DNA of 64,000 nucleotides, from positions 54,087 through 118,086 of the forward strand of contig JAFRRD010000039.1 of assembly GCA_017428265.1 (NCBI GenBank), read 5' to 3'. The translations under genes and the position numbers were made by a program. The notes beneath the pieces are model-generated. The model was not told the origin of the DNA, ran no database searches, and worked only from the letters and a program-made list of their open reading frames with translations. Positions 33,752 through 50,732 of the stretch are shown here, in pieces (the first letter of the stretch is position 1; the number at the start of each line of letters is the position of its first letter). The DNA comes from Lachnospiraceae bacterium. GTDB lineage: Bacteria; Bacillota; Clostridia; Lachnospirales; Lachnospiraceae.

Positions 33752-34264
33752 TCAGATAAAAGTAACCGTTTCGGCAAGGGGTTTCCGGCTGCTGTGATTC
33801 GGGAGCGGCCCCACACCTTCCTCTGCATAACCGAGGTCCAGCAGCATCAGGATCTCTTCCTTCTCCGGCAGTCCCAGTTCGGCTTTTAACAGCTCCGGAT
33901 CGAAACGGTTGACCCAGCAGCTGTCCACGCCTTCATCTGCCGCCGCCAGGATCAAATGGGTTGCCACGATCGTCGCATCCTCGATCCCCGAATCGCGCTG
34001 TCCGCCCGGATAGGTATAAACATTTTCCCTGTCAAAAGCAACCGCCAGAACCGTCGGCGCACCGTAACGGCAAATGGTCAGCTTATCCACTTTAGCCAGT
34101 GCATCCTCGGATTCCAGTACATAAATGTGCTGCTCCTGAAGATTTCTGGCTGTCGGCGCCAGACGCCCCGCTTCCAGGATGGCGTTGATTTTCTCTCGTT
34201 CAACCTTTCTGCTGCTGTACTTTTTGCAGGCATAGCGATTCCTGACCACATCCTTGAATTCCAT
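33752..34264 (-). CDS. Nitroreductase-family flavoprotein
   Basis: 170 residues from the ATG at 34262-34264, preceded by GGAGGAAG. MEFKDVVRNRYACKKYSSRKV is the classic FMN-binding N-terminus of short nitroreductases, followed by APTARNLQ and LAAADEGVDSCWVNRF. Members use NAD(P)H and FMN to reduce nitro groups, quinones or other electron-poor substrates. It lies 16 bases after fthC and is last of the lysR-fthC-nitroreductase unit. A role in redox balance of the adjacent catabolic cluster is conceivable but not shown. Confidence 0.85.
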   Translation of the reverse strand: MEFKDVVRNRYACKKYSSRKVEREKINAILEAGRLAPTARNLQEQHIYVLESEDALAKVDKLTICRYGAPTVLAVAFDRENVYTYPGGQRDSGIEDATIVATHLILAAADEGVDSCWVNRFDPELLKAELGLPEKEEILMLLDLGYAEEGVGPLPNHSSRKPLAETVTFI

Positions 34265-34280
34265 TTGTCTTCCTCCGTTT

Positions 34281-34862
34281 CTATAATATCGTTCCCGAAT
34301 AGATCGCTTTGTCTGTATAGACGGCTTCCATCGGATAATCCCACTCGCGCAGCGGAATGAAATCCGCCTTCTGCACCTCAAATGCTGCCGCTGCCACATG
34401 TGCATTCCTGCACTTCGGAAGGAAACGGTCATAGTAACCGGCCCCCATGCCGATCCGGCTGCCGTTTTCGTCAAAGGCTGTGCACGGGCAGATCACAAGG
34501 TCTATGCTTTCCGGGGCAATTTGTTCTGAAGCTTCAGGCAGCGGCTCCGGTATCCCAAACGCCCCTTTTTTCCAGGCTCCGGGGAGCATGGCGATCATCT
34601 CTGTCCTGCTGATGCAAAGCGGGTATACAAAACGTTTTCCGGCCGAAGCCGGATGAGAAAGGAGCGCATCCAGGGAGAGTTCACCCCTGATATGATTGTA
34701 GATCATAACCGTCCCGGCCTGCTGAAAGATCCTGCTTTCCGCAATCCGTTCTGCTGCCGCAGCCGAACCCGCTTCCCGCTCAGCATCTGTTAACGCATCT
34801 CTGGCCGAAATGCCCCGCCCGCGCAGGACAGCACTCGTTACATCTGAAGAAAGCTCACTCAT
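34281..34862 (-). CDS. fthC: 5-formyltetrahydrofolate cyclo-ligase
   Basis: 193 residues. The Mg-ATP/folate motif GMGAGYYDRFL (about 143-153), PCTAFDENGSRIG and the end WDYPMEAVYTDKAIY mark this family, which turns 5-formyl-THF into 5,10-methenyl-THF with ATP. Its first codons overlap the lysR stop by 8 bases, so it is translated with the regulator. Combined with fhs, fchA and folD within 5 kb it completes a set for oxidising and rescuing one-carbon folates. Confidence 0.85.
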   Translation of the reverse strand: MSELSSDVTSAVLRGRGISARDALTDAEREAGSAAAAERIAESRIFQQAGTVMIYNHIRGELSLDALLSHPASAGKRFVYPLCISRTEMIAMLPGAWKKGAFGIPEPLPEASEQIAPESIDLVICPCTAFDENGSRIGMGAGYYDRFLPKCRNAHVAAAAFEVQKADFIPLREWDYPMEAVYTDKAIYSGTIL

Positions 34863-35757
34863 TACTGAAACCTGTTTTCAAGGCGAAATAGTGCTTCACG
34901 TGTTTCGCAAACAGCTGTGCTGCATGTGACTGATAATTATTCTTTACCCACCCCAAAAGAACTCTCCAGGGAAATGCATCTTCAAGCGGAATGATTTTCA
35001 GCCCCGGGCACAGAATATGCTCTGCATAAGGTCTGGGCATGATATACACGCCGGTCCCGTTAAGCGTGCTCTTAACCAAAGAACTGATATTGGTGCTGGA
35101 AAAGCCAACTTTGGGCACATACCCCGCCTGTTTGCATTTTTCCATGATCTGCTGATACATCAGAGACGCCGAAGTATACAGATTATATGACTCCTCCTGC
35201 AGATCTTTAAAGCTTAGTTTTTCTCTTTCGGCCAGGCTGTTTTTATCTGACACACAGACAACAATCGTGTCCTCCAGAAGAGGTATCGTCTCAACCACAT
35301 CACTCTTCTCCAGAGAGATATAGATATTGATATCCGTCTCATGATTCTCCAGCATTTTCTGCAAAGCCAGCGACCCCATTTCCTCAACGCGGATTTCAAT
35401 GTCCGGATACCGCTGGCAGAACTGATTGATGATCTCTCTTCCATACAGTTCATTGACCATCGGTCCCATTCCGATAGCCAGTCTTCCTTTAACCGCCATT
35501 TTTACAGCGTCAATGGCATCAGGAATCGCATCAAACTGCTGCAGAATCGTCGTTGCTCTGGCATACAGAACCTCTCCGCAATCTGTCAGATAAACACCAT
35601 CCGGCTGTGTATCAAATAACTGGGCCCCCAGTTCATCTTCCATCTTCCGGATGGCTTTACTGATTGCGGGCTGTGAAACAAATAAATGTGCTGCTGCTTT
35701 AGTATAACGTCTGTCATCTGCGACCTGAACGAAATAGCGAAGATCTCTCAGTTCCAT
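34855..35757 (-). CDS. LysR-family transcriptional regulator
   Basis: 300 residues from the ATG at 35755-35757 with CAGGAGG seven bases upstream. MELRDLRYFVQVADDRRYTKAAAHLFVSQPAISKAIRKME is the LysR helix-turn-helix; the rest is a periplasmic-binding-like effector domain. It lies between folD and fthC on the same strand. A dyad CTATAAC-N7-GTTATAG sits 31 bases before its start, and the same 7-base half-site appears near the fhs/Ldh2 and TRAP promoters, so it is the natural candidate regulator for the whole catabolic region. Effector unknown. Confidence 0.88.
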   Translation of the reverse strand: MELRDLRYFVQVADDRRYTKAAAHLFVSQPAISKAIRKMEDELGAQLFDTQPDGVYLTDCGEVLYARATTILQQFDAIPDAIDAVKMAVKGRLAIGMGPMVNELYGREIINQFCQRYPDIEIRVEEMGSLALQKMLENHETDINIYISLEKSDVVETIPLLEDTIVVCVSDKNSLAEREKLSFKDLQEESYNLYTSASLMYQQIMEKCKQAGYVPKVGFSSTNISSLVKSTLNGTGVYIMPRPYAEHILCPGLKIIPLEDAFPWRVLLGWVKNNYQSHAAQLFAKHVKHYFALKTGFSNE

Positions 35758-35787
35758 ATTATCCTCCTGTTCCGGCATCAAGTTTAC

Positions 35788-35808
35788 CTATAACTGACTA
35801 TGTTATAG
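35788..35808 (-). promoter_or_regulatory. Likely LysR autoregulatory site
   Basis: Perfect inverted repeat CTATAAC-TGACTAT-GTTATAG. Its inner ATAAC-N7-GTTAT fits the LysR-type pattern of short dyads. Placement 31 bases before the lysR start suggests autoregulation; binding is inferred. Confidence 0.6.
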
Positions 35809-35907
35809 CACAATAAACAACTATTGTCACGATAACCAGGTATTATTATTGCCTGAGAGCGCTATGAAACTGTTAATTTTTTCGCTGTTTTCAAATCATC
35901 TTGGCTT

Positions 35908-36762
35908 TCACTGAAGTGTCCTGGCCGCTGCCTCAACAACATGTGAAACCAATACACTCGTTGTCACGGCACCGACACCGCCGGGAACAGGTGTGATTGC
36001 CTTTACGACAGGCTCTGCCTCATCAAAGTGGACATCGCCGCAGAGTTTTTGTTTCGCTTCATTCCAGCCGATCCCGACGTCGATCACGGTCTGGCCTTCG
36101 TGCAGGTATTCAGCACCGACGCTTTCCATCTGCCCGGAGGCGGCAATCACAATATCGGCTTCGCGGGTAAAGGAAGGAACATCCTCGGTCCGGGTATGAC
36201 AGACAGTTACTGTTGCATTCGCGTGCATGAGCAGCATCGCGACAGGCCGGCCGATCACCAGACTGCGTCCGATCACCACTGCACGCTTGCCCGAAACAGA
36301 GATATTATAGTATTTCAATATCTCCATCGCCGCCTGCGCAGTGCAGGGCGGAAAGCCCACAGCCGCATTCGTGAATACGCCGGCAAGCGAGCCGTCCGTG
36401 CAGCCGTCAACGTCTTTTTCCGGCGCCAGCATCTTCCGGGCTTTCTCCCCATCAAGCTGCTTCGGCAGGGGCCGGAACATAAGAATTCCATGAACGGAAG
36501 AATCCCGGTTCAGGGCTTCCAGTGTCCCAAAGAACTCTTCACTTCCAACATCCGCCGGCAGTACGACATTTTTCACGGCAACGCCGACTTGTTCGCAGCG
36601 TTTCATCGCACCGCGCTCGTAGCTAAGGTCATCGTCCCTCGCACCGACGCGCAGAATAGCCAGCGCAGGAACGATTCCTTTTTTCCTTAACGCTGCGGCT
36701 GCCGCAGCTGTCTTTTCATTCAACGCTGCCGCTGCCGGAGCCCCCTTCAACAATTCAGTCAT
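35908..36762 (-). CDS. folD: Bifunctional 5,10-methylene-THF dehydrogenase/cyclohydrolase
   Basis: 284 residues. Signature regions: SYERGAMKRCEQVG (substrate Lys is replaced locally, see below), FRPLPKQLD, and the dinucleotide site VVIGRSLVIGRPVAMLL, closing with ITPVPGGVGAVTTSVL. The enzyme oxidises methylene-THF to methenyl-THF and hydrolyses that to 10-formyl-THF. Canonical FolD has S-x-x-Y-V-x-x-K; here the stretch reads SYERGAMK, which keeps Tyr and Lys with shifted context. It overlaps the fchA stop by one base, so the two are coupled. Confidence 0.88.
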   Translation of the reverse strand: MTELLKGAPAAAALNEKTAAAAAALRKKGIVPALAILRVGARDDDLSYERGAMKRCEQVGVAVKNVVLPADVGSEEFFGTLEALNRDSSVHGILMFRPLPKQLDGEKARKMLAPEKDVDGCTDGSLAGVFTNAAVGFPPCTAQAAMEILKYYNISVSGKRAVVIGRSLVIGRPVAMLLMHANATVTVCHTRTEDVPSFTREADIVIAASGQMESVGAEYLHEGQTVIDVGIGWNEAKQKLCGDVHFDEAEPVVKAITPVPGGVGAVTTSVLVSHVVEAAARTLQ

Positions 36763-37379
36763 CAGCTGATCCTTTCTGTCACACTGTTGTATATTTCTGA
36801 AGCAATCGGAGCATAATGCTTCAGCAATTCAGCGACTCTTGTATTAAGCATTTCAGCATATTCTCTGTCCTGCATCGGTTTTGTATTGACTCTGACATTG
36901 ACTGCTGCGCCGTTCATTGCACTCATACAGAAAGCAGCACCGCAGGCCGCATCGGAAATCACGATGACACTGCCTTTTTCCGCAAATTCCTTCAGCAAAT
37001 CTATAGCTGCTCCGCAAAGCTCCAGGATCTCCATAGGGACAGCAGCTGCCTGCTGAAGGCACTCTTCCATGATGGTTTCACGCTCTGGTGCGTCTTTCGG
37101 GATAGCATAGGCGCGGGAAAGCGGCTCGAACGCCTCTGCGTCCTTTTCAATACAAACAAGGAGCTTTCGGCGCAGGTCCTGGGCCTTTGCCATCAGGTCT
37201 TTTATCTCCTCTTCCACATCCGCATAGCGTTTCTTGCCGACCGTATACTCGCCAACCATGTCACCGAGCGCGATGCCCTCCGCTCCAACAAGAGCGCTTG
37301 CTCCGCCACCCCCGGGAGCGGGGGCTTTGGACGCTGTCAATTCCGTAAACTTTTCAATTGTTGTATGCAGCAGTTCCAT
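36762..37379 (-). CDS. fchA: FchA-type methenyl-THF cyclohydrolase / formimino-THF cyclodeaminase
   Basis: 205 residues, helical. APAPGGGGASALVGAEGIALGDMV near residue 19 and KDAEAFEPLSRAY are typical of the FTCD C-terminal-domain family. Stand-alone members in acetogens and purine-fermenting clostridia act as methenyl-THF cyclohydrolase or cyclodeaminase. It lies 9 bases after fhs and one base overlaps folD. With a full-length FolD alongside, the cyclohydrolase activity could be duplicated, or this protein handles formimino-THF; no hutH/glutamate formimidoyltransferase genes are present. Confidence 0.85.
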   Translation of the reverse strand: MELLHTTIEKFTELTASKAPAPGGGGASALVGAEGIALGDMVGEYTVGKKRYADVEEEIKDLMAKAQDLRRKLLVCIEKDAEAFEPLSRAYAIPKDAPERETIMEECLQQAAAVPMEILELCGAAIDLLKEFAEKGSVIVISDAACGAAFCMSAMNGAAVNVRVNTKPMQDREYAEMLNTRVAELLKHYAPIASEIYNSVTERIS

Positions 37380-37388
37380 TTTTCATCC

Positions 37389-39065
37389 TCAGAACAGTCC
37401 GGAAATGACGCCGTTTTCGTCGACGTCGATCTTCTCGGCGGCCGGGACCTTCGGGAGCCCCGGCATGGTCATGATCTCACCGGTCAGGGCCACGATGAAG
37501 CCGGCGCCGCCGCAGACCTTGAGGTTGCGGACCGTGACGCGGAAGTTCTTCGGCGCGCCCAGTTTGGCCGGATCGTCCGAGAAGCTGTATTGGGTCTTGG
37601 CCATGCAGATGGGCAGGCCGCCGCAGCCCATGGCTTCAATCTCTTTTTCCTGCTTGACGGCCGCGCCGACCAGATCCACGCCGTCAGCGTGATAGATCTT
37701 GGTAGCAATGGCATTCAGCTTGTCGCGGATGGGCAGATCCAGTTCGTAGGAGGTGGTGAAATGGCTCGGCTGTTCGCAGAGGCGGACGACTTCTTCCGCC
37801 AGCGCCTTTCCGCCCTTGCCGCCCTTCGCCCAGACCTCGGAGAGAGCGACGTTAACGCCCAGCTCTTTGCATTTTGCTTCAACAAGATCCAGTTCGGCTT
37901 TCGTATCGGTCGGGAAGGCGTTGATTGCAACGACGCAAGGCAGGCCGTAGACATTTTTGATGTTGCCGACATGCTGCAGGAGGTTCGGCAGGCCCTTTTC
38001 GAGCGCTTCCAGGTTCTCCATGTTCAGCTCGGCTTTCGGCACGCCGCCGTGGTATTTCAGGGCGCGGACCGTCGCCACAACGACCACTGCAGAAGGCTTA
38101 AGGCCGGCAAGACGGCACTTGATATCAAAGAATTTCTCGGCGCCCAGGTCGGCGGCGAAGCCGGCCTCCGTGACGGCGTAATCGGCCAGTTTCATGGCCA
38201 TGCGGGTCGCGGTCACGGAGTTGCAGCCGTGGGCGATATTGGCAAAGGGGCCGCCGTGGATGAAGGCGGGTGTACCTTCGAGGGTCTGCACCAGATTGGG
38301 CTTGAGCGCGTCTTTCAGCAGCGCTGCCATGGCGCCCTCGGCCTTAAGGTCGTGGGCCGTGACCGGCTTGCCCTGGTAGGTATAGCCGACGATGATGCTG
38401 CCGAGCCGTTTTTTCAGATCCGGGATATCACTCGCTAAGCACAGGACCGCCATGACCTCGCTGGCCACGGTGATGTCAAAACCGTCTTCACGCGGAACGC
38501 CCTGCATCCGGCCGCCGAGACCGTCAACGATCTGACGCAGCTGCCGGTCATTCATATCGACCGCGCGCTTCCAGGTGATGCGCTTCGGATCGATACCGAG
38601 CTCATTTCCTTGTTGGATGTGGTTGTCCAGCATCGCGGCGAGCAGGTTGTTCGCGGCGCCGATCGCATGGAAGTCACCGGTAAAATGGAGGTTGATGTCC
38701 TCCATCGGCACGACCTGGGCATAGCCGCCGCCGGCCGCACCGCCCTTGATCCCGAACACCGGGCCGAGCGACGGTTCACGCAGCGCCACGATGGCGTTCT
38801 TCCCGATCTTCCGCAGGCCATCGGTCAGGCCGACACTGGTCGTGGTCTTGCCTTCGCCGGCAGGGGTGGGGGTGATCGCAGTGACCAGGATCAGCTTGCC
38901 GTCCGGCTTGTCCGCGAGGTCCTTCAGCAGGCGGTAATCGACCTTTGCCTTGTAATTTCCGTACTGTTCCAGGTACTTTTCATCAACGCCGGCAATCGCG
39001 GCGATCTCGGTGATTTTCTTCTTTTCGCAGGCCTGTGCGATCTCGATATCGGATTTGAGTCCCAT
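37389..39065 (-). CDS. fhs: Formate-tetrahydrofolate ligase
   Basis: 558 residues, full length. ATP loop [17 protein letters not shown] (about 64-80), [22 protein letters not shown] and the conserved end region [18 protein letters not shown]. It couples formate, THF and ATP to 10-formyl-THF and in reverse makes ATP while releasing formate. AAGGAG precedes the ATG. First gene of fhs-fchA-folD. Composition is GC-rich, as in the core genome, unlike the more AT-rich neighbours from 39.3 kb on. Its promoter shares an element with the TRAP operon. Confidence 0.96.
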
Positions 39066-39162
39066 TGCATTTCTCCTTTTTACGCTCGTATTCTTCTTGC
39101 GAATCAGTCAGCTTCTTCTGTCTTCTTCCCTATTTCCAACAGCTTCTGTTTTGCTTAATTTG

Positions 39163-39229
39163 AGCATAGCATCTCAATAACTGTTTGGGAAATACCGTTT
39201 TTTACTACACTTATTCCTGTCAGTTATAG
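39163..39229 (-). promoter_or_regulatory. fhs promoter with shared operator; also upstream of Ldh2-type gene
   Basis: On the plus strand: AGCATA (39163-39168, inverse of TATGCT as -10 for fhs), 21 bases, AAATACCGTTTT (39190-39201), then GTTATAG (39223-39229). The -35 is poor (TCCCAA at 16-base spacing), as expected for an activator-dependent promoter. The 12-bp element and the 21-base spacing recur at the TRAP operon promoter. The 300-base gap also must hold the promoter of the plus-strand dehydrogenase gene. Confidence 0.65.
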
Positions 39230-39365
39230 TATGGAAGTCTTAATTCGGTAATCCTTAATTCTCTAACATCTCTTTATAACCTCTGTTTATACTCACTGAA
39301 CTTTTATATATTTGACATTTTTTATCTGTTTCATATGATTTGATATAGTAGGAGGGCTGTGACCG

Positions 39366-40397
39366 ATGAAGACGATACCCGCTGAAAAACTGAAAGAATA
39401 CTGTTTCCGCATTCTTAAAGCTGAAGGTGTAGAAGACTCTTGTGCACGGGACGTGTCCGATATGATGTTGGACGCTGACTTAACAGGAGTCTCCACTCAC
39501 GGTGTCAGCCGATTATCCATTTATGTTGAACGGGTGCGTGCAGGTGTCGTTTCCCGCGAGAGAAATGTCCGGATCACACAGGAAAGTGCCGCAACCCTTG
39601 TCATCGATGCCGGAAACACTTTCGGCGCAGCCGGAGCAAAATTTGCCATGGAAGCCTGCATACGAAAAGCCAAAGAATCCGGATGCTGTTTTGCGACTGT
39701 ACACAATTCCAATCACTTTGGAACTGCAGCTTTCTACTCAAAAATGGCCGCCAAAGAAGATATGATCGGCTTCATATGTACGAACGTAACCGGGAAAATT
39801 GCTCCTTATGGAAGCAAAACCGCTTATTTGGGAACTAACCCATTCTCCATTGCCGCCCCCTCTGAAGGTGATCCTTTCCTGCTTGATATGACCCCGACGG
39901 TAGTTGCCCTTGGTAAACTAATCACGGCGCAAAAACTCGGACAATCCATTCCCCTTGGCTGGGCGCTTGATGAAGAGGGGAATCCTACCACTGATCCTGC
40001 TGCAGGCCGACGCGGCTCTCTTGTTCCTATTGGCGGCGCAAAAGGCAGCGGCATTGCCATGGCTATTGATATTCTGGCCGGGATCATGAGCGGAGCCGGC
40101 TACGGGCGCTATCTCCACGACCTTTATTCCATGGATGCACCACAGGGATTAGGACATTTCCTTGGCGTCATCGATATTTCCCGCTTTATTGATCTGACAG
40201 TCTTTAAACAAATGGTCAGTCAATATATGCATGAAATCCGAAATCTCGACAAAGCAAACGGATTTAACGAAATACGGATCCCCGGAGAGCGCGGCTTTGC
40301 AGAACTCCAGAAAAATCTCAAGGAAGGAATCACGATTCCCGAGCCGGTTTACGAAGAGCTTGCGGAGCTTGGCAGGCAGAACGGCTTAAGCCTTTAA
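39366..40397 (+). CDS. Ldh2-family (malate/L-lactate dehydrogenase-like) oxidoreductase
   Basis: 343 residues. The family features are present: STHGVSRLSIYVERV (catalytic His), VDAGNTFGAAGAKFAMEACI, VHNSNHFGTAAFYSKMA, GTNPFSIAAPS and GGAKGSGIAMAIDILAGIMSGAGYG. Ldh2 enzymes use NAD(P) with a non-Rossmann fold to oxidise 2-hydroxyacids or reduce 2-ketoacids; relatives act on malate, sulfolactate, ureidoglycolate or diketogulonate. GGAGGG lies eight bases before the ATG. Divergent from fhs and convergent with the TRAP operon, and probably part of the same pathway. Confidence 0.88.
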   Translation: MKTIPAEKLKEYCFRILKAEGVEDSCARDVSDMMLDADLTGVSTHGVSRLSIYVERVRAGVVSRERNVRITQESAATLVIDAGNTFGAAGAKFAMEACIRKAKESGCCFATVHNSNHFGTAAFYSKMAAKEDMIGFICTNVTGKIAPYGSKTAYLGTNPFSIAAPSEGDPFLLDMTPTVVALGKLITAQKLGQSIPLGWALDEEGNPTTDPAAGRRGSLVPIGGAKGSGIAMAIDILAGIMSGAGYGRYLHDLYSMDAPQGLGHFLGVIDISRFIDLTVFKQMVSQYMHEIRNLDKANGFNEIRIPGERGFAELQKNLKEGITIPEPVYEELAELGRQNGLSL

Positions 40398-40407: not shown

Positions 40408-40443
40408 AAATAGGCCATCCGGGCAGTCCCGGATGGCCTATTT
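40408..40443. terminator. Bidirectional terminator
   Basis: Perfect 16-bp stem starting AAATAGGCCATCCGGG with a CAGT loop and short A/T flanks, between the convergent Ldh2-type and aldo/keto reductase genes. Confidence 0.85.
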
Positions 40444-40456: not shown

Positions 40457-41425
40457 TCAGCGGTTATACTGATAACGCGTATCGGAAATCTGTTTCCAGA
40501 CTTCGTCGCAGCGTGCAAGAGTCTCCTCGGAGAGCGGCTTTCCTTCCAGTGCGCGAAGATTGCTCTCCAGATGCTGCATGGAAGTCGACCCAATCAGTAC
40601 AGAATCGACAAAGTCATGCTGTGCGCACCACTTGATGGATAAGTCCGCAAGTGTTATCCCCGCATCTTCTGCAATCGGTCGAAGCAGTTCTACACCGCGA
40701 AAACTGTCTTCATTCCAGTATCGGTCCTGATACTGTTTGTTGCCGTCAAAACGCCCGGCAACGATCTTGTCAAAGGAATGCTTTCCCGTCAGCAGTCCGC
40801 CCGCAAGCGGGTTAAAGACAGTCATTCCTATTTTGTGCGCCCTTAGGCAGGGTACGAGTTCCGGCTCTGCACTGCGGCAAAGAAGATTATAAACATTCTC
40901 GCTGAGAACAGGGCGGGGCACATGCCTCATGACAGCGCATGCATCTATATCCGCAAGCTGCCACGAAGCAAAATTGCTGACCCCCCAATAGCGGATCTTC
41001 CCGCTGCGAATCAGATCTCCGAGTGTATCAACAGTCTCTTCAATCGGCGTATCCGGGTCCGGAATATGCAGATAGTAAACGTCAATATAGTCTGTTTTCA
41101 GCCGTCTCAGACTGCCCTCAATTTCCCGCATGATAGCCCGACGGTTCAGTCCTTCCGAATTCAGCCGTTCGGGATGACGCGTCAGACGAACTTTGGTAGC
41201 AAGAACAACATCATCGCGCCGTCCCTGAAGCGCTTCACCGAGAACCGATTCCGAATGACCGTCCTGATAGACATTTGCGGTATCAATGAAGTTGACTCCG
41301 CTGTCAAGTGCAAAATGAGTCATACGGATGGCATCGTCCTTTGGGATTCTTCCCCCGAACTCCATAGTGCCAAGACTTAATCTGGAAACAGTTATTCCTG
41401 TTGCAGTTAAGCGCTTATACTCCAT
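40457..41425 (-). CDS. Aldo/keto reductase
   Basis: 322 residues, an (alpha/beta)8 enzyme. GVNFIDTANVYQDGHSE contains catalytic Asp and Tyr (about 48-58), LATKVRL the catalytic Lys, YYLHIPDPDTP the active-site His, and ILMG-type C-terminus here reads VLIGSTSMQHLESNLRA for NADPH binding. It reduces or oxidises a carbonyl or hydroxyl group. Last gene of the nine-gene TRAP operon, 56 bases after the PanB-family gene; GGAGG before the ATG. Substrate probably an aldehyde or keto intermediate of that pathway. Confidence 0.87.
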   Translation of the reverse strand: MEYKRLTATGITVSRLSLGTMEFGGRIPKDDAIRMTHFALDSGVNFIDTANVYQDGHSESVLGEALQGRRDDVVLATKVRLTRHPERLNSEGLNRRAIMREIEGSLRRLKTDYIDVYYLHIPDPDTPIEETVDTLGDLIRSGKIRYWGVSNFASWQLADIDACAVMRHVPRPVLSENVYNLLCRSAEPELVPCLRAHKIGMTVFNPLAGGLLTGKHSFDKIVAGRFDGNKQYQDRYWNEDSFRGVELLRPIAEDAGITLADLSIKWCAQHDFVDSVLIGSTSMQHLESNLRALEGKPLSEETLARCDEVWKQISDTRYQYNR

Positions 41426-42385: not shown

Positions 42386-43342
42386 TTATTTGCTCAGGTG
42401 ATAGTATTCAACGATCTTATCGACCAGGAAATTGCCGATTGCGTCATATGCTTCATACGCACTGCCGCCGAGATGCGGGGTAATGATAAATCCCTTCTGA
42501 CCAAACAGCGGACTGGACAAAATCGCATCATCCGATGAGAAACCTTTTGTACCCAGCTCATCAGCAAGAACATCAAATCCCAGACCTGCGATCTTGCCGG
42601 ACTGAAGTGCTTTCAGTGCGGCTTCTTCATTGATAATGCCGCCGCGGGCACAGTTGATGACAATCGCACCGTCTTTCATTTCTTCAAACTGTTTTTCCCC
42701 GATCATTCCCTTCGTCTCAGGTGTCATCGGCGTATGGACAGTGAGATAATCACTGCGGCGCACCAGTTCATCCAGATCCTCAAGCAGTTCCACGCCGCGC
42801 GATAAGGCATCCTCTTTGTCAATATACGGGTCGTAGACAATAACCGTCATGCCGAACGCCTGCGCCAGTTCACCGACACGTTTTCCAATATGGCCGAAAC
42901 CAACGATGCCAAGCGTGTGGCCTTTCAGCTCATGACCGGTGTATTTGTATTTGTTCCAAACGCCCTGTTTCTGAACCTCTTCGTTTGCTTCAACGGTCAT
43001 GCGCGACAGATCAAGCATCTTGGAGATCGTCAGCTCTGCCACTGCGTTGGCATTCTTGCCCGGCGCATTCTGAACCGTAATGCCGCGCTCCCTGGCATAC
43101 TGCATGTCAATATGGTTTGTACCGGCTGAATTGACACAGAGCAGCTTCATTTTCTCCGGCATTGCGTCAATCATTTCCCTGTCCATTTTCGGATCAACGC
43201 GCATGAGCAGAACATCGTAATCCGGAAGCAGAGCTTTGAGCTCTTCGCGGGACGGAAGAATTTTCGTATCGACCTCGACGCCATATTCCTTCAGTCTGGC
43301 TGTGATTACGGGAGAAACACGGTCAATGATGAGTACTTTCAT
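42386..43342 (-). CDS. D-isomer-specific 2-hydroxyacid dehydrogenase
   Basis: 318 residues from the ATG at 43340-43342; a TTG four codons earlier is possible. NAD site GIVGFGHIGKRVGELA (about 149-164), catalytic Arg in NCARGGIINEEA, Glu about 30 residues on, and His in ITPHLGGSAYEA. The family interconverts 2-hydroxy and 2-keto acids, as in phosphoglycerate or hydroxypyruvate reduction. It lies 34 bases after the RraA-like gene and 31 before the PanB-family gene, so it may form or use the 2-keto acid acted on by those enzymes. Confidence 0.9.
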   Translation of the reverse strand: MKVLIIDRVSPVITARLKEYGVEVDTKILPSREELKALLPDYDVLLMRVDPKMDREMIDAMPEKMKLLCVNSAGTNHIDMQYARERGITVQNAPGKNANAVAELTISKMLDLSRMTVEANEEVQKQGVWNKYKYTGHELKGHTLGIVGFGHIGKRVGELAQAFGMTVIVYDPYIDKEDALSRGVELLEDLDELVRRSDYLTVHTPMTPETKGMIGEKQFEEMKDGAIVINCARGGIINEEAALKALQSGKIAGLGFDVLADELGTKGFSSDDAILSSPLFGQKGFIITPHLGGSAYEAYDAIGNFLVDKIVEYYHLSK

Positions 43343-43376
43343 AAACTGTAACAACCTTTCTTTTTTAATGATCGGA

Positions 43377-44147
43377 TCACCACTGCGATGCAGGCAGAAT
43401 CTTCAGTACATCGGCAATGCTGCCGCCGGCATGGAATGCTTCCATAACACGTTTTTCTTTTTCTGCCGCAGCCTTAACCCGCTCCAAAACTTCTTCGATC
43501 CTGTCGTTCGGGATGAAGCAAATACCGTTGTCATCCGCAATGCACAAATCGCCAGGACAGACCTGTATGCCGTCAATCAGGACAGGACAGTTGATCTCTG
43601 CTGCCAGAATGCGGAATTTGCCGGTAATCGGTGTGACATGACGTGACCAAGCCGGGTACCCCAGTTCCCGCATTTCCTCGACATCGCGAACACCGCCGTC
43701 ACAGATAGTGCCGGCTATGCCGCTTTTGACGGCAACATTTGACGACATGCCTCCCTGGCAGGAAACCTCCCGTCCGTCCGCATCATACACAACGATATCG
43801 CCCGGCTGGGCTACCGCATACGCATCACGGTCAGCCATATGACCTTTGTTCTTTTCTACAAATCCCTGTGTCGGCGTTTTGCGTTCGAACAAATAGCGCA
43901 GTGTCACCACCGGACCAATAATCGTTTTGCCCGGGATAACAGGCCTTAAAACACTTGCTGAAACAGCGCCGATAATGCCCATACTGTCCAGAATATCCGA
44001 TACTGTAGGCGTCAGTCCGCCAGCGTGCCGGTAGAATTCGTCAATGATTTCCTTGGACGGGCGGGGGATTTCCGTGCAGATAATTTTGTCCTCGTCAATC
44101 AGGCCAAACAGCCTGTCGCGATATTTTTCAAGGTTTTTTTCGTACAT
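43377..44147 (-). CDS. RraA/HMG-aldolase family protein
   Basis: 256 residues. The family core includes LTPTVSDILDSMG (about 46-58), the metal/substrate stretch GTICDGGVRDVEEMRELGYPAWSRHVTP and NGICFIPND. RraA-fold proteins of this length act as 4-hydroxy-4-methyl-2-oxoglutarate aldolases and oxaloacetate decarboxylases, giving pyruvate, or related retro-aldol enzymes. The conserved Arg-Asp (GGVRD) for metal and pyruvate-enolate binding is present. In this operon it would be a second carbon-carbon cleaving enzyme beside the PanB-family protein. Confidence 0.85.
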   Translation of the reverse strand: MYEKNLEKYRDRLFGLIDEDKIICTEIPRPSKEIIDEFYRHAGGLTPTVSDILDSMGIIGAVSASVLRPVIPGKTIIGPVVTLRYLFERKTPTQGFVEKNKGHMADRDAYAVAQPGDIVVYDADGREVSCQGGMSSNVAVKSGIAGTICDGGVRDVEEMRELGYPAWSRHVTPITGKFRILAAEINCPVLIDGIQVCPGDLCIADDNGICFIPNDRIEEVLERVKAAAEKEKRVMEAFHAGGSIADVLKILPASQW

Positions 44148-44196
44148 GCTTGTGCCTCCGATGTATAATATCTGGAATGTGTTTCGTTATCTCGGA

Positions 44197-44559
44197 TCAT
44201 GAAGTCAGGTGAATCGCAAAACCGCCGAACTCCTGCGTCAGATAGACAAAGTTGATTCTTCCGTTTTCATCCCGCCGGATCGTCTCCTCTCGGAACGTGA
44301 TTCCTTTTGCCGCAAGATCCGCCATTGAAGCTTCAACGTCATCCGTCTGCAAGGCAATATGCCCGTTTTTCCCTCGTCTCGAGTGTTTCTGTACTTCGAA
44401 GATATCGCCTGCAAAAACTTTATCCGGAGTATCCTTTTGAGGCACTAAATCGAAATAAAACGTGAGTTGATTCAACAGCTCATTTGCCTGTTCCGCATCT
44501 TGATTGTTGATACCGATATGCTTGATTCGGTAGTTGAATTCTTTCTTTTCATTGCTCAT
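44197..44559 (-). CDS. VOC (glyoxalase-fold) protein
   Basis: 120 residues from the ATG at 44557-44559 with AGGAG nine bases upstream. One vicinal-oxygen-chelate domain: RIKHIGINNQDAEQANELL with metal His, GHIALQTDDVEASMADLAAKG with second His, and a Glu-containing final strand. VOC proteins bind a divalent metal and catalyse isomerisation, lyase or dioxygenase steps. Similar proteins sit in sugar-acid operons of Clostridia, often named after KDPG aldolase without proof. Possible isomerase or epimerase step here. Confidence 0.75.
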   Translation of the reverse strand: MSNEKKEFNYRIKHIGINNQDAEQANELLNQLTFYFDLVPQKDTPDKVFAGDIFEVQKHSRRGKNGHIALQTDDVEASMADLAAKGITFREETIRRDENGRINFVYLTQEFGGFAIHLTS

Positions 44560-44575
44560 TTGTCGGACTCCTCTC

Positions 44576-45736
44576 TTATGGTTGACTGTCAATTGACTCG
44601 TTAAACAGTGCTGAACTTTCCCATGCGTCAGAAAAAGCTGAATAATAAGCAGGAATGTTCAGTTGTTCCAACTGTGGATTCATTTCAATCGTCATTGCAT
44701 TGACACGCGCCGCGATAAGCGCATCAAAATATGTATTGCGCATTCCGGCAGCTGCAGCGGAAACATCCAGTTCCTTTCGCATGATGATGTGGAAGCCGTA
44801 GACGCTTTCCGTGATCAGACTGAACTCGCCGGGTTTCAGCTGCTCTGCGGCAGTCTCAAACTCCTTGATCATTGCGCCTGGCATATAGGTATACCCGTTC
44901 GGATAATTCTGACGGCCTATATCTTCGCTGTACTCGTCCGCCAGTTCCTGAAACAGTTCCTGCGGCCGTTCACTGTCACAAAGGCGATGATAAATGTCTT
45001 CAATCAGTGCTATTTTTGCATCGATAATGTCCTGCGAATAACGTTCCTTTGTCGTCATATCCATGGTCAGGAGCAATATCTGATCTGCTGTAACGGCCCC
45101 CTGCGCTTCGGCATATGCAGCAACATCTTCATCCGAAGCATACAGGCGGCTTCCCTCCGTCAGATAGAGGTCATAAAGATCGCTGTACAGACGCCCTGTG
45201 GCATTGATGCGTTCATAGATCTCGGGCCGAAGGCCCAGCAGTGCGATCTGCCGCAGGTATTCTTCTTCACTGCCCAGCTTTGCAATATAGGCATCCTTCT
45301 GTTCCTGGAGCGCCGCTTTATCGGCCTCACTTAACGAGACAGCATATTCTTTGGCCATGCTTTCAATGACCGCAAAGTAACGGACTGAATTGAGCGCGTC
45401 AATTTTGACATAGTCAAGAACGCTTGTGCCCTGACTGATCTCGTAATCCCAGTCCAGATCCATACCGTTTTGCTTCAGATAGCTTTCAATACGCCGCGTA
45501 CTGTGGCAAAGCCAGTACAGATAAAGATCATACGAGATCTCGTTGCCGTCAGCTAATACTGCCGCAGTATCCGGAGCGATTCCTGTTTTTTCATAAACCA
45601 GGCCTTCTTTGACATGTCCTGGCGCAAAGGGATCCTTCTGGCAGGCGGAAAGCAGCAACCCCGCCGCTAACACGATGACTGCACCGCATTTCAAAGCTGT
45701 TCGTTTTAATACGCCATGTTGTTTCAGTATAACCAT
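44576..45736 (-). CDS. PpiC/SurA-type peptidyl-prolyl isomerase lipoprotein
   Basis: 386 residues. Signal peptide with lipobox LLSAC (residues about 28-32), then a helical chaperone part and a parvulin-like segment near 240-330 ([14 protein letters not shown] ... [52 protein letters not shown]), ending in another helical part. This is the PrsA/SurA plan: extracytoplasmic folding factors. It overlaps the ilvD-like gene by 13 bases. Why a foldase lies in a catabolic operon is unclear; it might serve the TAXI binding protein. Confidence 0.8.
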
Positions 45737-47370
45737 GTGACGCCCTGATCTGCGCGCGAAACCATCCTTCGATAGGTGTCAAGAATGCCTTTGGCAGGAT
45801 GTTCGACCGGCTTGAATACAGCAGCCCGCCGTGCCAGTTCCGCCTCATCAACTTCAAGCTGGATCGAATGGTTCTCGCAGTCAATCGAGATCATATCTCC
45901 GTCCTCAACGAGGCCGATCAGCCCTCCGTCATAGGCTTCCGGAGAGATATGTCCGATGCAAGGACCGCGGGATGAGCCGGAAAAACGGCCATCCGAGATC
46001 AGTGCGACAGAACTGCTGAGCCCCATACCGACCAGCATCGCTGCAGGGATTGACATTTCCCGCATACCGGGACCTCCGCGCGGCCCTTCATATCTGACAA
46101 CGATCACGTCGCCGGGTTTGACCTTGTTTCCGATCAGTTTGTCGATGACCTCTTCCTCGGAATTGAACACCACCGCAGGTCCCCTGTGTTTTAGCATCTT
46201 GGGATCGCACGCACTGGTCTTGATGATGCAGCCGTTTTTCGCAAGGTTGCCATAAAGCACGCGGAAGCAGCCGTTAGGATAATACGCATTTTCTATGCTG
46301 TGAATAACCTCCGGATTGGTAACGGGCGGAGCCGCATCCAGGATCTCACGCAGTGTGCCGCCCATCGCATGAGGTACGTCCAGATCGATCATGGAACGGA
46401 TGCTGTTCAGGCTTGCGCGTACGCCGCCGGCCCGGTAATAATCATCCATATGGTATTGAGAAGCCGGTTTGAGTTTAACGACTACAGGGATAGATTCCTG
46501 TACCCGGTCAAAGTCTTTCAGGGTGAAATCAATATCTAACGCCTTGGCAATGGCGACGCAGTGCAGCGCACAGTTAGTGGAGCCTCCGGTGGCGGAAATA
46601 TGCTTGATACCGTTTTCGAATGCCTCGAGCGTGGCAAATTGACGGAATGTTTTGCCTTCCTTGGTCAGCTGAACAATACGCTCTCCGACTGTACGTGCCT
46701 GCCGGTATTTTTCGCCGATACAGTACGGCATGATCGTGCAGTCAAACGGTGCAACGCCCATAACCTCGGCAAAAATACCCATGGCAATTGCTGTGCCGTT
46801 GATGGAGCAGGTGCCGCAGGAATAGCAAATGTTCTCCTGATAGCGCTGGAATGTTGCGTAATCTATCTTCCCGCTGGTATACGATCCGATAGATTCCTTA
46901 AGGTCCGACGTAACGAAAGTCCGCTCAGGAGCCTGATAAGGAAGCATTGAGCCGCCCATAAGGAACAGTGTGGGAATATCGAGCCTTGCTGCCGCCATCA
47001 GCATGCCCGGCACGATCTTATCGCATGAGCACATGAAGACAAGTCCGTCAAACCGGTGAGCTCTGACCATCGCCTCTGCCGAAGCTGCAATCAGATCCCG
47101 CTGGGGCAGGATGCACTGCATTTCACGTGTTTGAGCCATACCGTCGCAAGGAGCCTGAAGATCAAATTCCGCAGGGACTCCGCCGCCGGCCCAGACGCCC
47201 TCTTTCACATACTGTGCCAGCTCGCGCAGCGGTTTGTGACCGGGATTAACTTCGCTCCAGGAATTTACAATACCGATGATGGGCTTCTGCAGATCCTCAC
47301 GCCTGAAGCCCGAAGCATGCATCAGACCGTTGTAATATGCGTCCTGAGGACGCGGTGCTTCGATCGCCAT
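45724..47370 (-). CDS. IlvD/Edd-family dehydratase
   Basis: 548 residues. Fe-S and substrate motifs: [13 protein letters not shown] (36-48), [14 protein letters not shown] (114-127), [13 protein letters not shown] (182-194) and the C-terminal [13 protein letters not shown]. The family dehydrates 2,3-dihydroxy acids to 2-keto acids; members make branched amino acids or break down sugar acids. The region around residue 72-80 ([11 protein letters not shown]) departs from the DDGIAMGH of biosynthetic IlvD, which argues for another substrate. No ilvB, ilvC or ilvE is near. Second enzyme position behind the TRAP permease fits first attack on an imported acid. Confidence 0.88.
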
Positions 47371-47393
47371 TAGTTATCTCCTTTTTTTCGATC

Positions 47394-49346
47394 TTACAGT
47401 TCTTCCTCATCAACCTTGAGAAACTCGACATCTTTAATACTGACCGCCTCGCCGGCCTGAACAATCTCGCCCTCTTTAGGTTTGAACACGAATTTTTGCA
47501 GCAGGAAGCAGACGACGGCGATTCCGATACCAATCAGGTCCGTTGTCAGACCAGAACTGATCATCAGAAGCGATGCCGCCAGCAGCAGCGCTGCCACCAG
47601 CGGATTGGCCTTATGAATGAACCAGCGTGTAACAGCATAGGCAAAGATGATCGTGCCGACAAACGCCGTGATTGCGGAACGAATGATCAGGCCAACACTT
47701 CCGATCATCAGCAGAGAATTGCTGTAGACGAACATATAAGGAACCACAAATGCTGCCAGGCCGAGTGTAAAGGCGCGCCATCCTGTTTTGCTCGCACTGG
47801 CTCCGGTCAGACCGGATGCCGCATACGCCGCAATAGCGACTGGCGGTGTAATGGAGGACAGGCAGGCGAAATAGAACACGAACAGGTGAGCTGCAAGCGG
47901 TTCGACGCCCAGCTTGATCAGGGCCGGTGCGACAACGGAGGAGCAGATGATATAACTTGCCGTCGTCGGCAGCCCCATGCCCATAATGACCGTGACGATC
48001 ATAGAGAAGAAAAGCGCCAGCAGCAGATGGCCGCCTGACAATGACACGACAACAGTCGCGATCTTACTGCCGAGGCCGGTCAGGGAAAGAACGCCGACGA
48101 TCAGACCTGCACAGCCGCAGGCAAGGATGACACCGCAGGAATCCTTCATGCCCTTTGCCAGCATGGCGATCACATCGCCGATCGTGTATCGCGTGGTCTT
48201 GCGGAGCATAGCGATAATAAAGCTGACACAAATCGTAACAAGCGCGGCTTTAAGCGGTGAATAGTCGGTGAAGATCAGCATGTAAAGCAAGAGCAGCAGA
48301 GGAATGGCCAGATGACCAACTTCCTGCAGAACCGCTTTCATTTTAGGAAGATCCTCTTTCTTAACGCCGGTCAGCCCTGTCTTCTGTGCCTCGACATCAA
48401 CCATGACATAGACTGATGTAAAGTAAAGGACTGCAGGGATAATTGCCGATCGGGCAACAACGGAATAATTCACAGCCAGCGTCTCAGCCATGATAAAGGC
48501 GGCTGCCCCCATGACCGGCGGCATGATCTGACCGCCTGTAGACGCCACGGCTTCAACTGCACCGGCAAATTCAGGCTTATACCCAATACGCCGCATCAGC
48601 GGAATAGTAAACGCGCCTGTCGTCACTACGTTTCCTGCTGCCGTGCCGTTGATCATTCCCATGCCGGCGCTGGCAAAAACAGCTGCCTTAGCAGGACCGC
48701 CGCGAGATCTTCCGAACGCCGAGATAGCCGCCTCGATAAAAAGCCGGCCGCCTCCGGTGCCTTCCAGCACCGCGCCGAAAATGACGAACAGAATAACGTA
48801 TGTTGCCGAAACCCCAAGAGAAATCCCGAATACACTGTTTACACCGTATTCAAAGGAAAGCAGACGTTTCCAGGTATAGCCGCGATGCCCAAGGATCCCC
48901 GGCAGATGCTTTCCGAACTTGGCATACAGCATAAAAATGATTGCCAGAATCGGCATCGTCGCGCCATTTGCCCGCCGTGTAGCCTCCAACAGGACTACAA
49001 TGCCGACACCGCAGACAATCAGATCCATCGTCGTCGGACCAAGGTCAATACGCGGTGCAAGCTCCGTATAATCGATAACGATATACGCCATGGTGCCAAT
49101 GCTGCACAAGATCAGCAAATAATCGAATACTTTGGAGAGTACGCCTTCTTTCTTGGTGAAGGGCCTGCTCATGATGAGAATCACTGTTCCAAACATCAGA
49201 TGTATCGCCCTGTAGGGCCACATACTCATGGGATGAAGTCCCAGAACCCAAAGATGAAAAAGGGCACCAATCAGAGCTATCCAGGTAATTACTTGCTGGC
49301 GGCGCGGTTTTTCCAAAATGTTTTTAATCGAGAAGAATTTCTTCAT
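47394..49346 (-). CDS. TAXI-type TRAP transporter, fused 4TM/12TM permease
   Basis: 650 residues, about 16-18 membrane helices: a small-subunit part (about 1-190) fused to the large DctM-like part with GMGMINGTAAGNVVTTGAFTIP and GMGLPTTASYIICSSVVAPAL. Such fused permeases pair with TAXI binding proteins and use the sodium or proton gradient to import organic acids. It follows the TAXI gene by 166 bases, with a stem-loop between. Substrate unknown; from the enzymes downstream, a hydroxylated carboxylic acid. Confidence 0.92.
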   Translation of the reverse strand: MKKFFSIKNILEKPRRQQVITWIALIGALFHLWVLGLHPMSMWPYRAIHLMFGTVILIMSRPFTKKEGVLSKVFDYLLILCSIGTMAYIVIDYTELAPRIDLGPTTMDLIVCGVGIVVLLEATRRANGATMPILAIIFMLYAKFGKHLPGILGHRGYTWKRLLSFEYGVNSVFGISLGVSATYVILFVIFGAVLEGTGGGRLFIEAAISAFGRSRGGPAKAAVFASAGMGMINGTAAGNVVTTGAFTIPLMRRIGYKPEFAGAVEAVASTGGQIMPPVMGAAAFIMAETLAVNYSVVARSAIIPAVLYFTSVYVMVDVEAQKTGLTGVKKEDLPKMKAVLQEVGHLAIPLLLLLYMLIFTDYSPLKAALVTICVSFIIAMLRKTTRYTIGDVIAMLAKGMKDSCGVILACGCAGLIVGVLSLTGLGSKIATVVVSLSGGHLLLALFFSMIVTVIMGMGLPTTASYIICSSVVAPALIKLGVEPLAAHLFVFYFACLSSITPPVAIAAYAASGLTGASASKTGWRAFTLGLAAFVVPYMFVYSNSLLMIGSVGLIIRSAITAFVGTIIFAYAVTRWFIHKANPLVAALLLAASLLMISSGLTTDLIGIGIAVVCFLLQKFVFKPKEGEIVQAGEAVSIKDVEFLKVDEEEL

Positions 49347-49401
49347 AACCTGTTATTCCTCATACATTGGTCTTAGGTTAATCATTTCCGGATACTGCAA
49401 C

Positions 49402-49440
49402 GGGTGGCTTAACAAACGGCGAAACGATGTTAAGCCACCC
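49402..49440 (-). promoter_or_regulatory. Intercistronic stem-loop between TAXI and permease genes
   Basis: GGGTGGCTTAAC and GTTAAGCCACCC form a perfect 12-bp stem with a 15-base loop. There is no T-run, so I read it as an mRNA-stabilising or partial-termination element that raises binding-protein yield over the permease. Confidence 0.65.
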
Positions 49441-49512
49441 ATTGTTCATGAATAACTATGCTTTATCGGAGACCGGTAAAGATTATGTCATCCGCCAAAG
49501 ATTTAAGGGTTA

Positions 49513-50571
49513 TTATTTCTGATATTCAGGACCGAAAGCACTCTCAGGCAGTTCAAGACCGATTTCCTGATAGTAGCGGATCGCACCAACATGCAGCGGT
49601 GTTGCAAGATCAAGAACGTTCTTGGGATCCAGCCACTTGAACGAAGCAGCGCCCTGAGCCAGTTCATCCTTGTGCTCATACGTGGTTTTGCAGATCTCAT
49701 AAACCAGATCCGCATCGGTATCTACGCTGGTCACAAATTTGTACCAAGTGAAGATGGTATCATAGTCTTCGTCCATGCCGGCATAAGTGCCCTTCGGAAT
49801 GGTACCGACGGCATAGTAAGGATATACATCAACAACCTTCTGTGCCTGTTCTTTTGTGATCGGGACCCAGCGGACCGCGTGAGTGCTGGCATATTCAGCA
49901 AATGCAGCAGCAGGGAAACCGCCAAGATCCATGCAGACCTCAATCAGGCCATCGCCCATTGCTGTAAAAGCATCGCTCCAGCCCATATCCTGGCGGGCTT
50001 TATACTCAACACCAAGAATCGGGTAGATCTCATTGGCCGCAAGCACACCGCCGCCGGTAGTCGTACCGTTGGAAATGATCTTGCCGGTCAGGTCTGTGAT
50101 GTTATAGACAGGGGTCTTTTCATCGACAATGATCTGCACAGCACCGGGATTCTGCGCAAGGATCGTGCGGACCTTGTCATACTTGGTTCCGTTTGCCCAG
50201 CCTTCGCCGCGGCGGCCGACATAGTCGATATTTTCGCCGCAGAAGCCGAACTCGATCTCGCCGTTATGTACCATGACGATGTTTGCCGACGAGCCGCCGG
50301 TAACTTCAGCACTCATTTCAAACTTATCCATATTGGCATTCAGGACGTTGGCGAGGGCTGTGCCGGAAACGTTGAAGTTGCCGCCGATTGACGCAGTGCC
50401 AAGGGAGCAGCGATAGGTCTCTGTACGGCCCTGTGCTTCGCTGGAAGCAGCAGGAGTGGAAGCGGCCTGGGTGGAAGCGGCCTGAGTGTTGCTCGGTGTG
50501 GTTTGGCTGCCACATGCGGCAAGGCCGAGTACCATGCACAGAGCGAGCGTGACTGCAAGAATTTTTTTCAT
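49513..50571 (-). CDS. TAXI-family TRAP substrate-binding lipoprotein
   Basis: 352 residues. Lipoprotein signal MKKILAVTLALCMVLGLAAC with Cys20, a Ser/Thr/Ala linker, then a TAXI domain: LGTASIGGNFNVSGTALANVLN, EVTGGSSANIVMVHNGEIEFGFCG and the Pro-Val-YNI segment. It captures the solute outside for the fused permease downstream. AGGAG lies before the ATG. First gene of the operon that runs to 40457, with all later gaps under 60 bases apart from the stem-loop gap. Confidence 0.92.
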   Translation of the reverse strand: MKKILAVTLALCMVLGLAACGSQTTPSNTQAASTQAASTPAASSEAQGRTETYRCSLGTASIGGNFNVSGTALANVLNANMDKFEMSAEVTGGSSANIVMVHNGEIEFGFCGENIDYVGRRGEGWANGTKYDKVRTILAQNPGAVQIIVDEKTPVYNITDLTGKIISNGTTTGGGVLAANEIYPILGVEYKARQDMGWSDAFTAMGDGLIEVCMDLGGFPAAAFAEYASTHAVRWVPITKEQAQKVVDVYPYYAVGTIPKGTYAGMDEDYDTIFTWYKFVTSVDTDADLVYEICKTTYEHKDELAQGAASFKWLDPKNVLDLATPLHVGAIRYYQEIGLELPESAFGPEYQK

Positions 50572-50676
50572 CGTTCGTTCTCCTTCTCTTTTAATTCAGT
50601 TGATCGTTCAATTGCATCTCTCTGCTAGACGCGACTTAATAAAACCAGAAAATCGCAGTTCTATTTGGTTGTTATT

Positions 50677-50732
50677 AATGTAGCATGATTGCAAAGTCTT
50701 GCAAAATACCGTTTTGTTATTCGCCTATAACC
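50677..50732 (-). promoter_or_regulatory. TRAP operon promoter with upstream activator site
   Basis: Reading leftward: TTGCAA (50699-50704), 16-base spacer, TACATT (50677-50682). Directly upstream on the plus strand lies AAATACCGTTTT (50704-50715), identical to the fhs element and also 21 bases from the -10 box, then CTATAAC (50725-50731), the lysR half-site. Position just above -35 suits LysR activation. Confidence 0.65.

Follow-up and report, generated by a model that had tools for sequence, protein, structure and literature searches.

A PanB-family hydroxymethyltransferase among importer and folate genes of a Lachnospiraceae bacterium, and its possible role in the breakdown of hydroxylated acids

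What does a PanB-family hydroxymethyltransferase do between the genes of an importer and those of folate one-carbon metabolism, in a genome where no panC is found? Such a gene (41482..42354, minus strand) lies in the 64,000-nucleotide stretch of a Lachnospiraceae bacterium analysed here (the window; assembly GCA_017428265.1, contig JAFRRD010000039.1). An earlier note, made from the letters of the window, proposed that PanB works in reverse, removing the hydroxymethyl group of an imported pantoate-like or branched acid as methylene-tetrahydrofolate (methylene-THF), from which folate enzymes would recover ATP. All the genes that it named between 33752 and 50732 are present according to their profile scores. 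Comparative genomics supports its core catabolic idea, but not pantoate as the substrate, the necessity of the IlvD-family and RraA proteins, or a general linkage to Fhs (formate-tetrahydrofolate ligase), as these were put. The reading preferred here, with a probability of about 0.6, is that the island imports and degrades a small hydroxylated carboxylic acid, with PanB acting as a retro-hydroxymethyltransferase and the one-carbon (C1) unit being converted to formate with a gain of ATP. The substrate and direction of this pathway are predictions, the direction being drawn from gene context.

The PanB clade and the search for panC

The source genome (G000) is 2.16 Mb long and 95% complete, and its single PanB match is the window gene. 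No match to panC (PF02569) was found in it, as the earlier note had claimed, and panC was not found in any of the 13 genus genomes tested (the source included; 16 are in the set). Two family members used as controls gave matches, and PF02569 was detected in 9 of 14 controls. Among the genomes that carry the PanB clade described below, panC was not found in seven of eight, including those of Ruminococcaceae bacterium D5 (G424), Yanshouia hominis (G425) and G973; one of the seven, the congener G015, is only 67% complete. The eighth carrier, G1046, has panC.

Without panC in the genome, the window PanB is unable to serve the known pantothenate route, and that function was thus ruled out. A role of the gene in pantothenate synthesis is improbable, and some of the carrier gut bacteria seem incapable of making vitamin B5. 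Some organisms (archaea) make pantothenate without a PF02569 enzyme. The earlier note had held that its idea would fall if a second, biosynthetic panB were lacking and this protein covered the need for pantothenate; a second panB is indeed lacking, but the known route is closed without panC.

In a tree of 45 PanB proteins the window protein belongs to a clade of nine with a support of 100/100, made up of the window, L021, L022, L023, L038 (D5), L039 (Yanshouia), L054 (G973), L055 and L081 (G1046). This clade is nested in a group of 26 (99/98), separate from a canonical group of 15 (98/93) that holds the PanB proteins of E. coli, M. tuberculosis and N. meningitidis and those of twelve loci of the order. 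The tree excludes L036 (partial), L037 (weak) and L040-L042, which are the same places as L021-L023. The PanB of G1046 locus L130 is in neither the tree nor the tallies given below, while L043 and L044 are in the tree and in no tally. Of the 25 other matches of the phylum sample, 20 were retrieved, then G1184, which stands outside the tree and tallies, and four were left out.

The clade is sparsely distributed. Of the 16 genomes of the genus, four carry a PanB of the window type, namely the source and the congeners G003, G004 and G015. The order sample gave one match in 392 at E <= 1e-90 (the source genome itself), the family sample 2 in 397 at E <= 1e-80 (both in this genus), and the family of D5 3 in 297 (D5, Yanshouia and G973). 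In the phylum sample, with matches in 23 of 398, all matches except the window and one G1046 copy (66%) are 45-54% identical, and that of G1184 is an ordinary panBCD locus. A scan of a genome collection returned seven loci, namely D5, Yanshouia, L040-L042 (three metagenome-assembled genomes of congeners, two titled goat and one RUG14193) and two distant Phycisphaeraceae. The three pattern matches in a viral collection include no relative, and the 646 plasmid records found by tblastn are all below 60% identity; the 25 matches listed are annotated panB.

Active site

The residues D45, S46, D84, K112, E114 and E181 (E. coli numbering), the catalytic and metal residues of PanB, are retained in all nine members of the clade. 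The active-site positions 202 and 214 have become polar, and so have 42 and 137, which may belong to the same region. Val214 is replaced by Asn in all nine, with Val or Ile at this position in all 34 other rows counted; Leu137 is Thr in all nine, and in eight of the nine Ile202 is Ser or Thr and Leu42 is Asn. A TALYDYP-like start together with Asn at 214 forms a signature that separates the clade from ordinary panB.

In E. coli PanB, the substitutions I202A and I212A broaden the range of keto acids, and V214G is suited to 2-oxoisovalerate with D-erythrose, according to PMC7610986. The polar residues at 202 and 214 favour a hydroxylated 4-hydroxy-2-oxo acid over ketopantoate as the substrate of the clade, so that the pantoate put forward in the earlier note is not borne out. 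The hydroxyls may lie on the side of the keto acid or on that of the leaving aldehyde.

Gene neighbourhoods

The window PanB belongs to PF02548 (Pantoate_transf, 291.7 bits) and TIGR00222 (253.1 bits). On the same minus strand are a TAXI-family TRAP substrate-binding lipoprotein (49513..50571; NMT1_3, 203 bits; TIGR02122, 194.7 bits against a cut-off of 84) and a fused TRAP permease DctM (47394..49346; 284.7 bits), so that both parts of a TAXI-TRAP importer are present. Next to PanB is a D-2-hydroxyacid dehydrogenase (2HADH; 42386..43354, minus; 2-Hacid_dh_C, 188 bits), which is PGDH-like but not PGDH (302 bits, below the cut-off of 454). Fhs (37389..39065; NF010030, 935.7 bits against a cut-off of 652), the methenyl-THF cyclohydrolase FchA (36762..37379; FTCD_C, 199.5 bits) and the methylene-THF dehydrogenase FolD (35908..36762; THF_DHG_CYH_C, 183.6 bits), all on the minus strand, are adjacent to one another and make up a folate module leading to formate.

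Within 8 kb of PanB, eight of the nine clade loci have a 2HADH gene and the ninth has an Ldh2 gene. RraA and a TRAP permease occur in six each, LysR in five, Fhs and FolD in four each, FchA and Ldh2 in three each, IlvD and a formate channel in two each, and panC in none. The canonical loci have panC in 11 of 12, and TRAP, Fhs and 2HADH each in 0 of 12. The Fisher p values for clade versus canonical (panC 3e-5, 2HADH 4e-5, Fhs 0.02) are rough, as the rows are related, and the 8-kb span is shortened by contig or locus ends in five of the nine clade rows and five of the 12 canonical ones. L055 and L081 have a TctA permease in place of TRAP. The window protein thus resembles biosynthetic PanB in its family, in scores above the cut-off and in its six catalytic residues, but differs in its separate clade, its polar active-site positions, the failure to find panC in 7/8 genomes and its operon with an importer, a dehydrogenase and folate genes.

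The 17 other rows of the wider group have TRAP nearby in eight, panC in one and Fhs in one, and 10 of 12 panC neighbourhoods retrieved have no PanB beside panC. Some PanB proteins of the wider group may therefore remain biosynthetic, which weighs on the idea, also considered, that every transporter-linked PanB is catabolic. Many of these genes (L082-L085, L091, L093-L096, L099) adjoin GlcDEF-like FAD/iron-sulphur oxidase subunits and relatives of LarA-type racemases, and such loci often carry DctPQM, which hints that 2-hydroxyacids are oxidised and epimerised there. Another IlvD relative is encoded at L084 and L085, and a relative of galactarate/altronate dehydratase at L083.

Related operons

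PanB stands beside TRAP genes in other genomes, as the earlier note had anticipated, in operons that run from importer and 2HADH through PanB to Fhs, FchA and FolD, twice with a formate channel. In D5 the order is LysR-TAXI-DctM-2HADH-PanB-Fhs-FchA-FolD, followed by an FNT formate/nitrite channel; in G973 it is RraA-TAXI-DctM-IlvD-2HADH-PanB-Fhs-Ldh2-FchA-FolD-FNT on a single strand. Fhs directly follows PanB in both. G1046 locus L081 has TctC, a 170-residue open reading frame that is presumably TctB, TctA, PanB, Ldh2, RraA, Fhs and FolD.

The window and G973 operons are 69% identical in TAXI, 73% in DctM and 88% in RraA (window gene 43377..44147, minus, an RraA-like aldolase family protein with 110 bits). 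The window 2HADH is 67% identical to the D5 and G973 copies. Homologues of the window Ldh2-family 2-hydroxyacid dehydrogenase (39366..40397, plus strand; Ldh_2, 380 bits) lie inside the PanB operons of G973 (60%) and G1046 (37%), and the window LysR is 42-44% identical to those of the D5 and Yanshouia loci.

The dehydratase varies between loci. The window IlvD/Edd-family dehydratase (45724..47370, minus) is an atypical IlvD, its TIGR00110 score of 581.5 bits being below the cut-off of 618. It is 72% identical to the G973 island copy, 59% to a paralogue on contig C45 of the source genome and 41% to a pair of proteins that belong to the higher-scoring type of IlvD; within the set compared, the subfamily of the window and G973 enzymes is about 56-72% identical. 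The proposal that the island enzyme is the only one of the IlvD family in its genome fails, the C45 paralogue being a second copy of the same subfamily beside another 2HADH. In L055 the gene between 2HADH and PanB encodes an MR/MLE protein that comes closest to galactonate dehydratase, though with a score below the cut-off. IlvD and RraA are not essential to the operon, since the D5 locus, 20.9 kb long, yielded no match to either; the D5 genome has two IlvD genes outside it, one of them of the window's subfamily.

Yanshouia lacks the TAXI-DctM pair between LysR and 2HADH. One Yanshouia contig matches the D5 sequence until 18 bases short of the panB end, and a second contig continues the match from there through Fhs; the breaks on the PanB side and on the Fhs-FchA-FolD-FocA side fall at one place of the D5 junction, to within two bases. 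From this we infer that an older PanB-Fhs operon was interrupted by a mobile element inserted at the panB 3' end. The breakpoints are at position 10876 of L039 and 11302 of L128, and a serine-recombinase gene adjoins the Fhs side. The element would resemble an integrative element with the panB 3' end as its attachment site.

In the congeners (L021-L023) the operon is 2HADH-RraA-DctPQM-metallo-hydrolase-threonate-dehydrogenase-like protein-FMN reductase-PanB, and appears to represent another pathway with the same PanB. The dehydrogenase-like protein is distantly related to L-threonate dehydrogenase (184 bits, where the cut-off is 350). In L021 and L022 a short-chain dehydrogenase/reductase gene and an isopropylmalate/homocitrate-synthase-like gene lie beside this operon.

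A second copy of Fhs

Two full Fhs genes are found in the source genome, D5, G973 and G1046, one of them beside PanB in each, and Yanshouia also has two. Of 15 congeners, among them the carriers G003, G004 and G015, 14 have one match (partial in G014) and G007 has three partial ones. Between the window Fhs and its counterpart on contig C34 of the source genome the identity is 96.6%, and the corresponding values for FolD, FchA and fthC are 81%, 76% and 61%. The C34 genes form a paralogous cluster, RraA-Fhs-FchA-FolD-fthC-FMN reductase (L125, 7813-13026). The GC content at third codon positions is 0.79 in the window Fhs versus 0.47-0.60 in other island genes; this and the high identity look as they would after gene conversion of Fhs alone.

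The island Fhs proteins do not form one clade. The island label needs four changes on the tree, and 262 of 500 shuffles were as low. The transfer of one intact PanB-Fhs module was ruled out on this ground.

Proposed pathway

In the proposed pathway the TAXI-TRAP importer would take up a polyhydroxy acid. A 4-hydroxy-2-oxo acid would then be formed by dehydration (through the IlvD-family enzyme in the window and G973, and in L055 through the relative of an MR/MLE dehydratase), by the oxidation of its 2-hydroxyl group through 2HADH and Ldh2, or by both. PanB would move the terminal CH2OH group to tetrahydrofolate as methylene-THF, and the keto acid that remains would be shorter, for example pyruvate or hydroxypyruvate. 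FolD and FchA would oxidise methylene-THF to 10-formyl-THF with a gain of NAD(P)H, and Fhs, running in reverse, would yield formate and ATP. The formate may leave through the FNT-family channel present in two of the related operons. A possible role of RraA is the cleavage of a related 4-hydroxy-2-oxo acid, and the aldo/keto reductase (AKR) of the island and 2HADH may absorb reducing equivalents.

The candidate substrates of PanB are 4-hydroxy-2-oxobutanoate or a 2-keto-tetronate derived from threonate or erythronate; alternatively, the substrate could arise when an acid with a hydroxymethyl branch, such as apionate, is dehydrated. D-threonate dehydration is known to give 4-hydroxy-2-oxobutanoate (PMC10079672). 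In engineered E. coli, C1 of 4-hydroxy-2-oxobutyrate (HOB) passes to tetrahydrofolate via PanB, leaving pyruvate (Bouzon 2017, as reported in the review PMC6966089). These precedents, the dehydratases beside PanB and the threonate-dehydrogenase relative rank C4 or branched sugar acids above pantoate.

Alternative explanations

Several observations weigh against the proposed breakdown of a hydroxylated acid. The window PanB still scores above the NCBI panB cut-off (253 versus 208 bits). The coupling of PanB to folate genes, claimed by the earlier note, holds for four of the nine clade members, with one further locus apparently split by a mobile element, and not for the rest: L021-L023, with their DctPQM operons, have no Fhs within 8 kb of PanB, and one Fhs each in their genomes. 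The TAXI proteins of the window and D5 are only 27% identical, so that their substrates may differ. The ungrouped island Fhs proteins and the 96.6% identity to the copy elsewhere in the source genome indicate that the folate module has not moved as one unit. All steps are reversible, and the genes alone thus leave the direction unfixed. Deletion of E. coli panB left formaldehyde-fed growth unchanged (PMC7073904), so that an ordinary PanB is not a strong source of C1 units in vivo in that species. Finally, the V214G result concerns the aldehyde partner (PMC7610986). Asn214 may then face the leaving aldehyde and not C3, which would fit a leaving group larger than CH2OH.

That last point lowers the standing of the preferred reading slightly and slightly raises that of another, in which PanB is a folate-free class II aldolase. 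It would release formaldehyde if its substrate is a small acid, or a larger aldehyde if it is a longer hydroxy-keto acid, and the folate genes would scavenge formaldehyde or be chance neighbours. E. coli PanB is a cofactor-independent, metal-dependent aldolase acting on many keto acids and tolerating aldosugars, as with V214G and D-erythrose (PMC7610986), and Asn at 214 is universal in the clade where Fhs linkage is not. The direct succession of PanB and Fhs in D5 and G973, and the second Fhs copy in each Fhs-linked genome, make such an aldolase improbable. Hardly better placed, and still quite unlikely, is the catabolism of pantoate itself, in which imported (R)-pantoate would be oxidised to ketopantoate by 2HADH and cleaved by PanB to 2-ketoisovalerate and methylene-THF, with formate and ATP as before. 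The D5 operon, in whose locus neither IlvD nor RraA was detected, speaks for this, as it brings together the importer, 2HADH, PanB, the three folate genes (Fhs, FchA, FolD) and the formate channel, and PMC7073904 proposes that the PanB reaction runs in reverse. The polar substitutions V214N, L137T, I202S/T and L42N, in 8-9 of the nine rows, are hard to reconcile with it, and the IlvD, RraA and Ldh2 of the window and G973 would be left unexplained.

The opposite direction is also unlikely. Formate would enter through FNT and be raised by Fhs, FchA and FolD to methylene-THF, with which PanB would hydroxymethylate an imported or internal 2-keto acid; 2HADH would then reduce the product to pantoate or another hydroxymethyl acid. 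Every step is reversible, and G1046 has a row DctPQM-Fhs-FolD-PanB-PanE (L130, 3759-11315) in which a high-scoring panB next to panE adjoins Fhs-FolD. That PanB is a strong ordinary panB (391 and 340 bits versus 285 and 253 for the window), so that neighbourhood alone is no proof of catabolism, a further point against the preferred reading. Synthesis is nevertheless hard to square with the failure to find panC in seven of eight carrier genomes; the importer, Ldh2 and RraA would have no role, and each C1 unit would cost ATP. The L130 row itself may serve pantoate catabolism or formate-fed pantoate synthesis, and panC-panD of G1046 lies about 135 kb from it.

Other features of the locus

The genes from TAXI to the AKR lie on one strand with intergenic gaps of -17 to 166 bp. 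Two of them qualify the gene list of the earlier note. It overlooked a PPIC rotamase-domain lipoprotein (44576..45736, minus; Rotamase, 40.9 bits), whose gene overlaps both its neighbours, the IlvD-family gene and the VOC gene, and for which the 39 other loci tallied yielded no homologue within 8 kb of PanB. The VOC-like protein (44197..44592, minus) is a weak call, its Glyoxalase_4 score of 25.1 bits being below the cut-off of 27. The AKR (40457..41425, minus; Aldo_ket_red, 257 bits) is convergent with Ldh2, and a 16-pair hairpin between them (40408..40443), found by a hairpin search, is a probable terminator; over the whole region there is no excess of terminator-like sites (21 versus 19.8 in shuffles).

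Ldh2 is divergent from the series Fhs-FchA-FolD-LysR-fthC-nitroreductase. The last three, all on the minus strand, are a LysR-family regulator (34855..35781; LysR_substrate, 124 bits), the 5-formyl-THF cyclo-ligase fthC (34281..34862; 5-FTHF_cyc-lig, 114 bits) and a nitroreductase (33752..34474; Nitroreductase, 89.9 bits). The match of the nitroreductase begins at residue 77, and its true start is probably internal, at an inner Met near 34264. Rfam gave no match at gathering scores.

The GC content between 32 and 52 kb is 0.505-0.548; ten of the eleven other 4-kb bins have 0.559-0.618, and the first has 0.529. With its GC content below that of most of the rest of the window, the region looks like an acquired island.

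Relation to known pathways and implications

Purine and amino-acid fermenters use Fhs-FchA-FolD modules to convert methylene-THF to formate with a gain of ATP, the donors being serine, glycine and formiminoglycine. The C1 chemistry proposed here is the same, but the C1 unit would come from a hydroxy-keto acid that PanB cleaves. Threonate and erythronate, four-carbon acid sugars, are known to be degraded through DUF1537 kinases, by phosphorylation and decarboxylation. Threonate-type substrates are plausible here too, given the threonate-dehydrogenase relative of the congener operon, but no DUF1537 kinase was found in a scan limited to the island proteins, and C-C cleavage by PanB is proposed instead. 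A side activity of PanB and panB-folK clustering are described in PMC4814558. Among the literature matches listed, with most subscription papers outside the coverage, there is no natural catabolic PanB operon.

To our knowledge, the nearest precedent is the synthetic HOB pathway. That pathway is engineered and starts from homoserine (Bouzon 2017 via PMC6966089), while the present one would be a natural operon with an importer, a dehydratase or dehydrogenase and a predicted route to formate and ATP. It is tempting, at somewhat less than even odds, to see in the polar-site PanB lineage its natural counterpart: a folate-dependent lyase of sugar-acid-derived 4-hydroxy-2-oxo acids in anaerobic gut bacteria, whose C1 unit yields ATP as formate, the same PanB core having been combined anew with various importers (TAXI, DctPQM or Tct) and with dehydratases that are unrelated to one another (IlvD-type, MR/MLE-type).

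Relatives of the operon occur in the records of named strains, Ruminococcaceae bacterium D5 and Yanshouia hominis BX1, which makes the prediction testable. If it is true, it would account for 'panB' annotations in genomes without panC and would supply enzymes of natural origin to the synthetic HOB and formaldehyde pathways built on E. coli PanB. It would also place a PanB clade in energy metabolism and give carbon a new natural way into the folate one-carbon pool.

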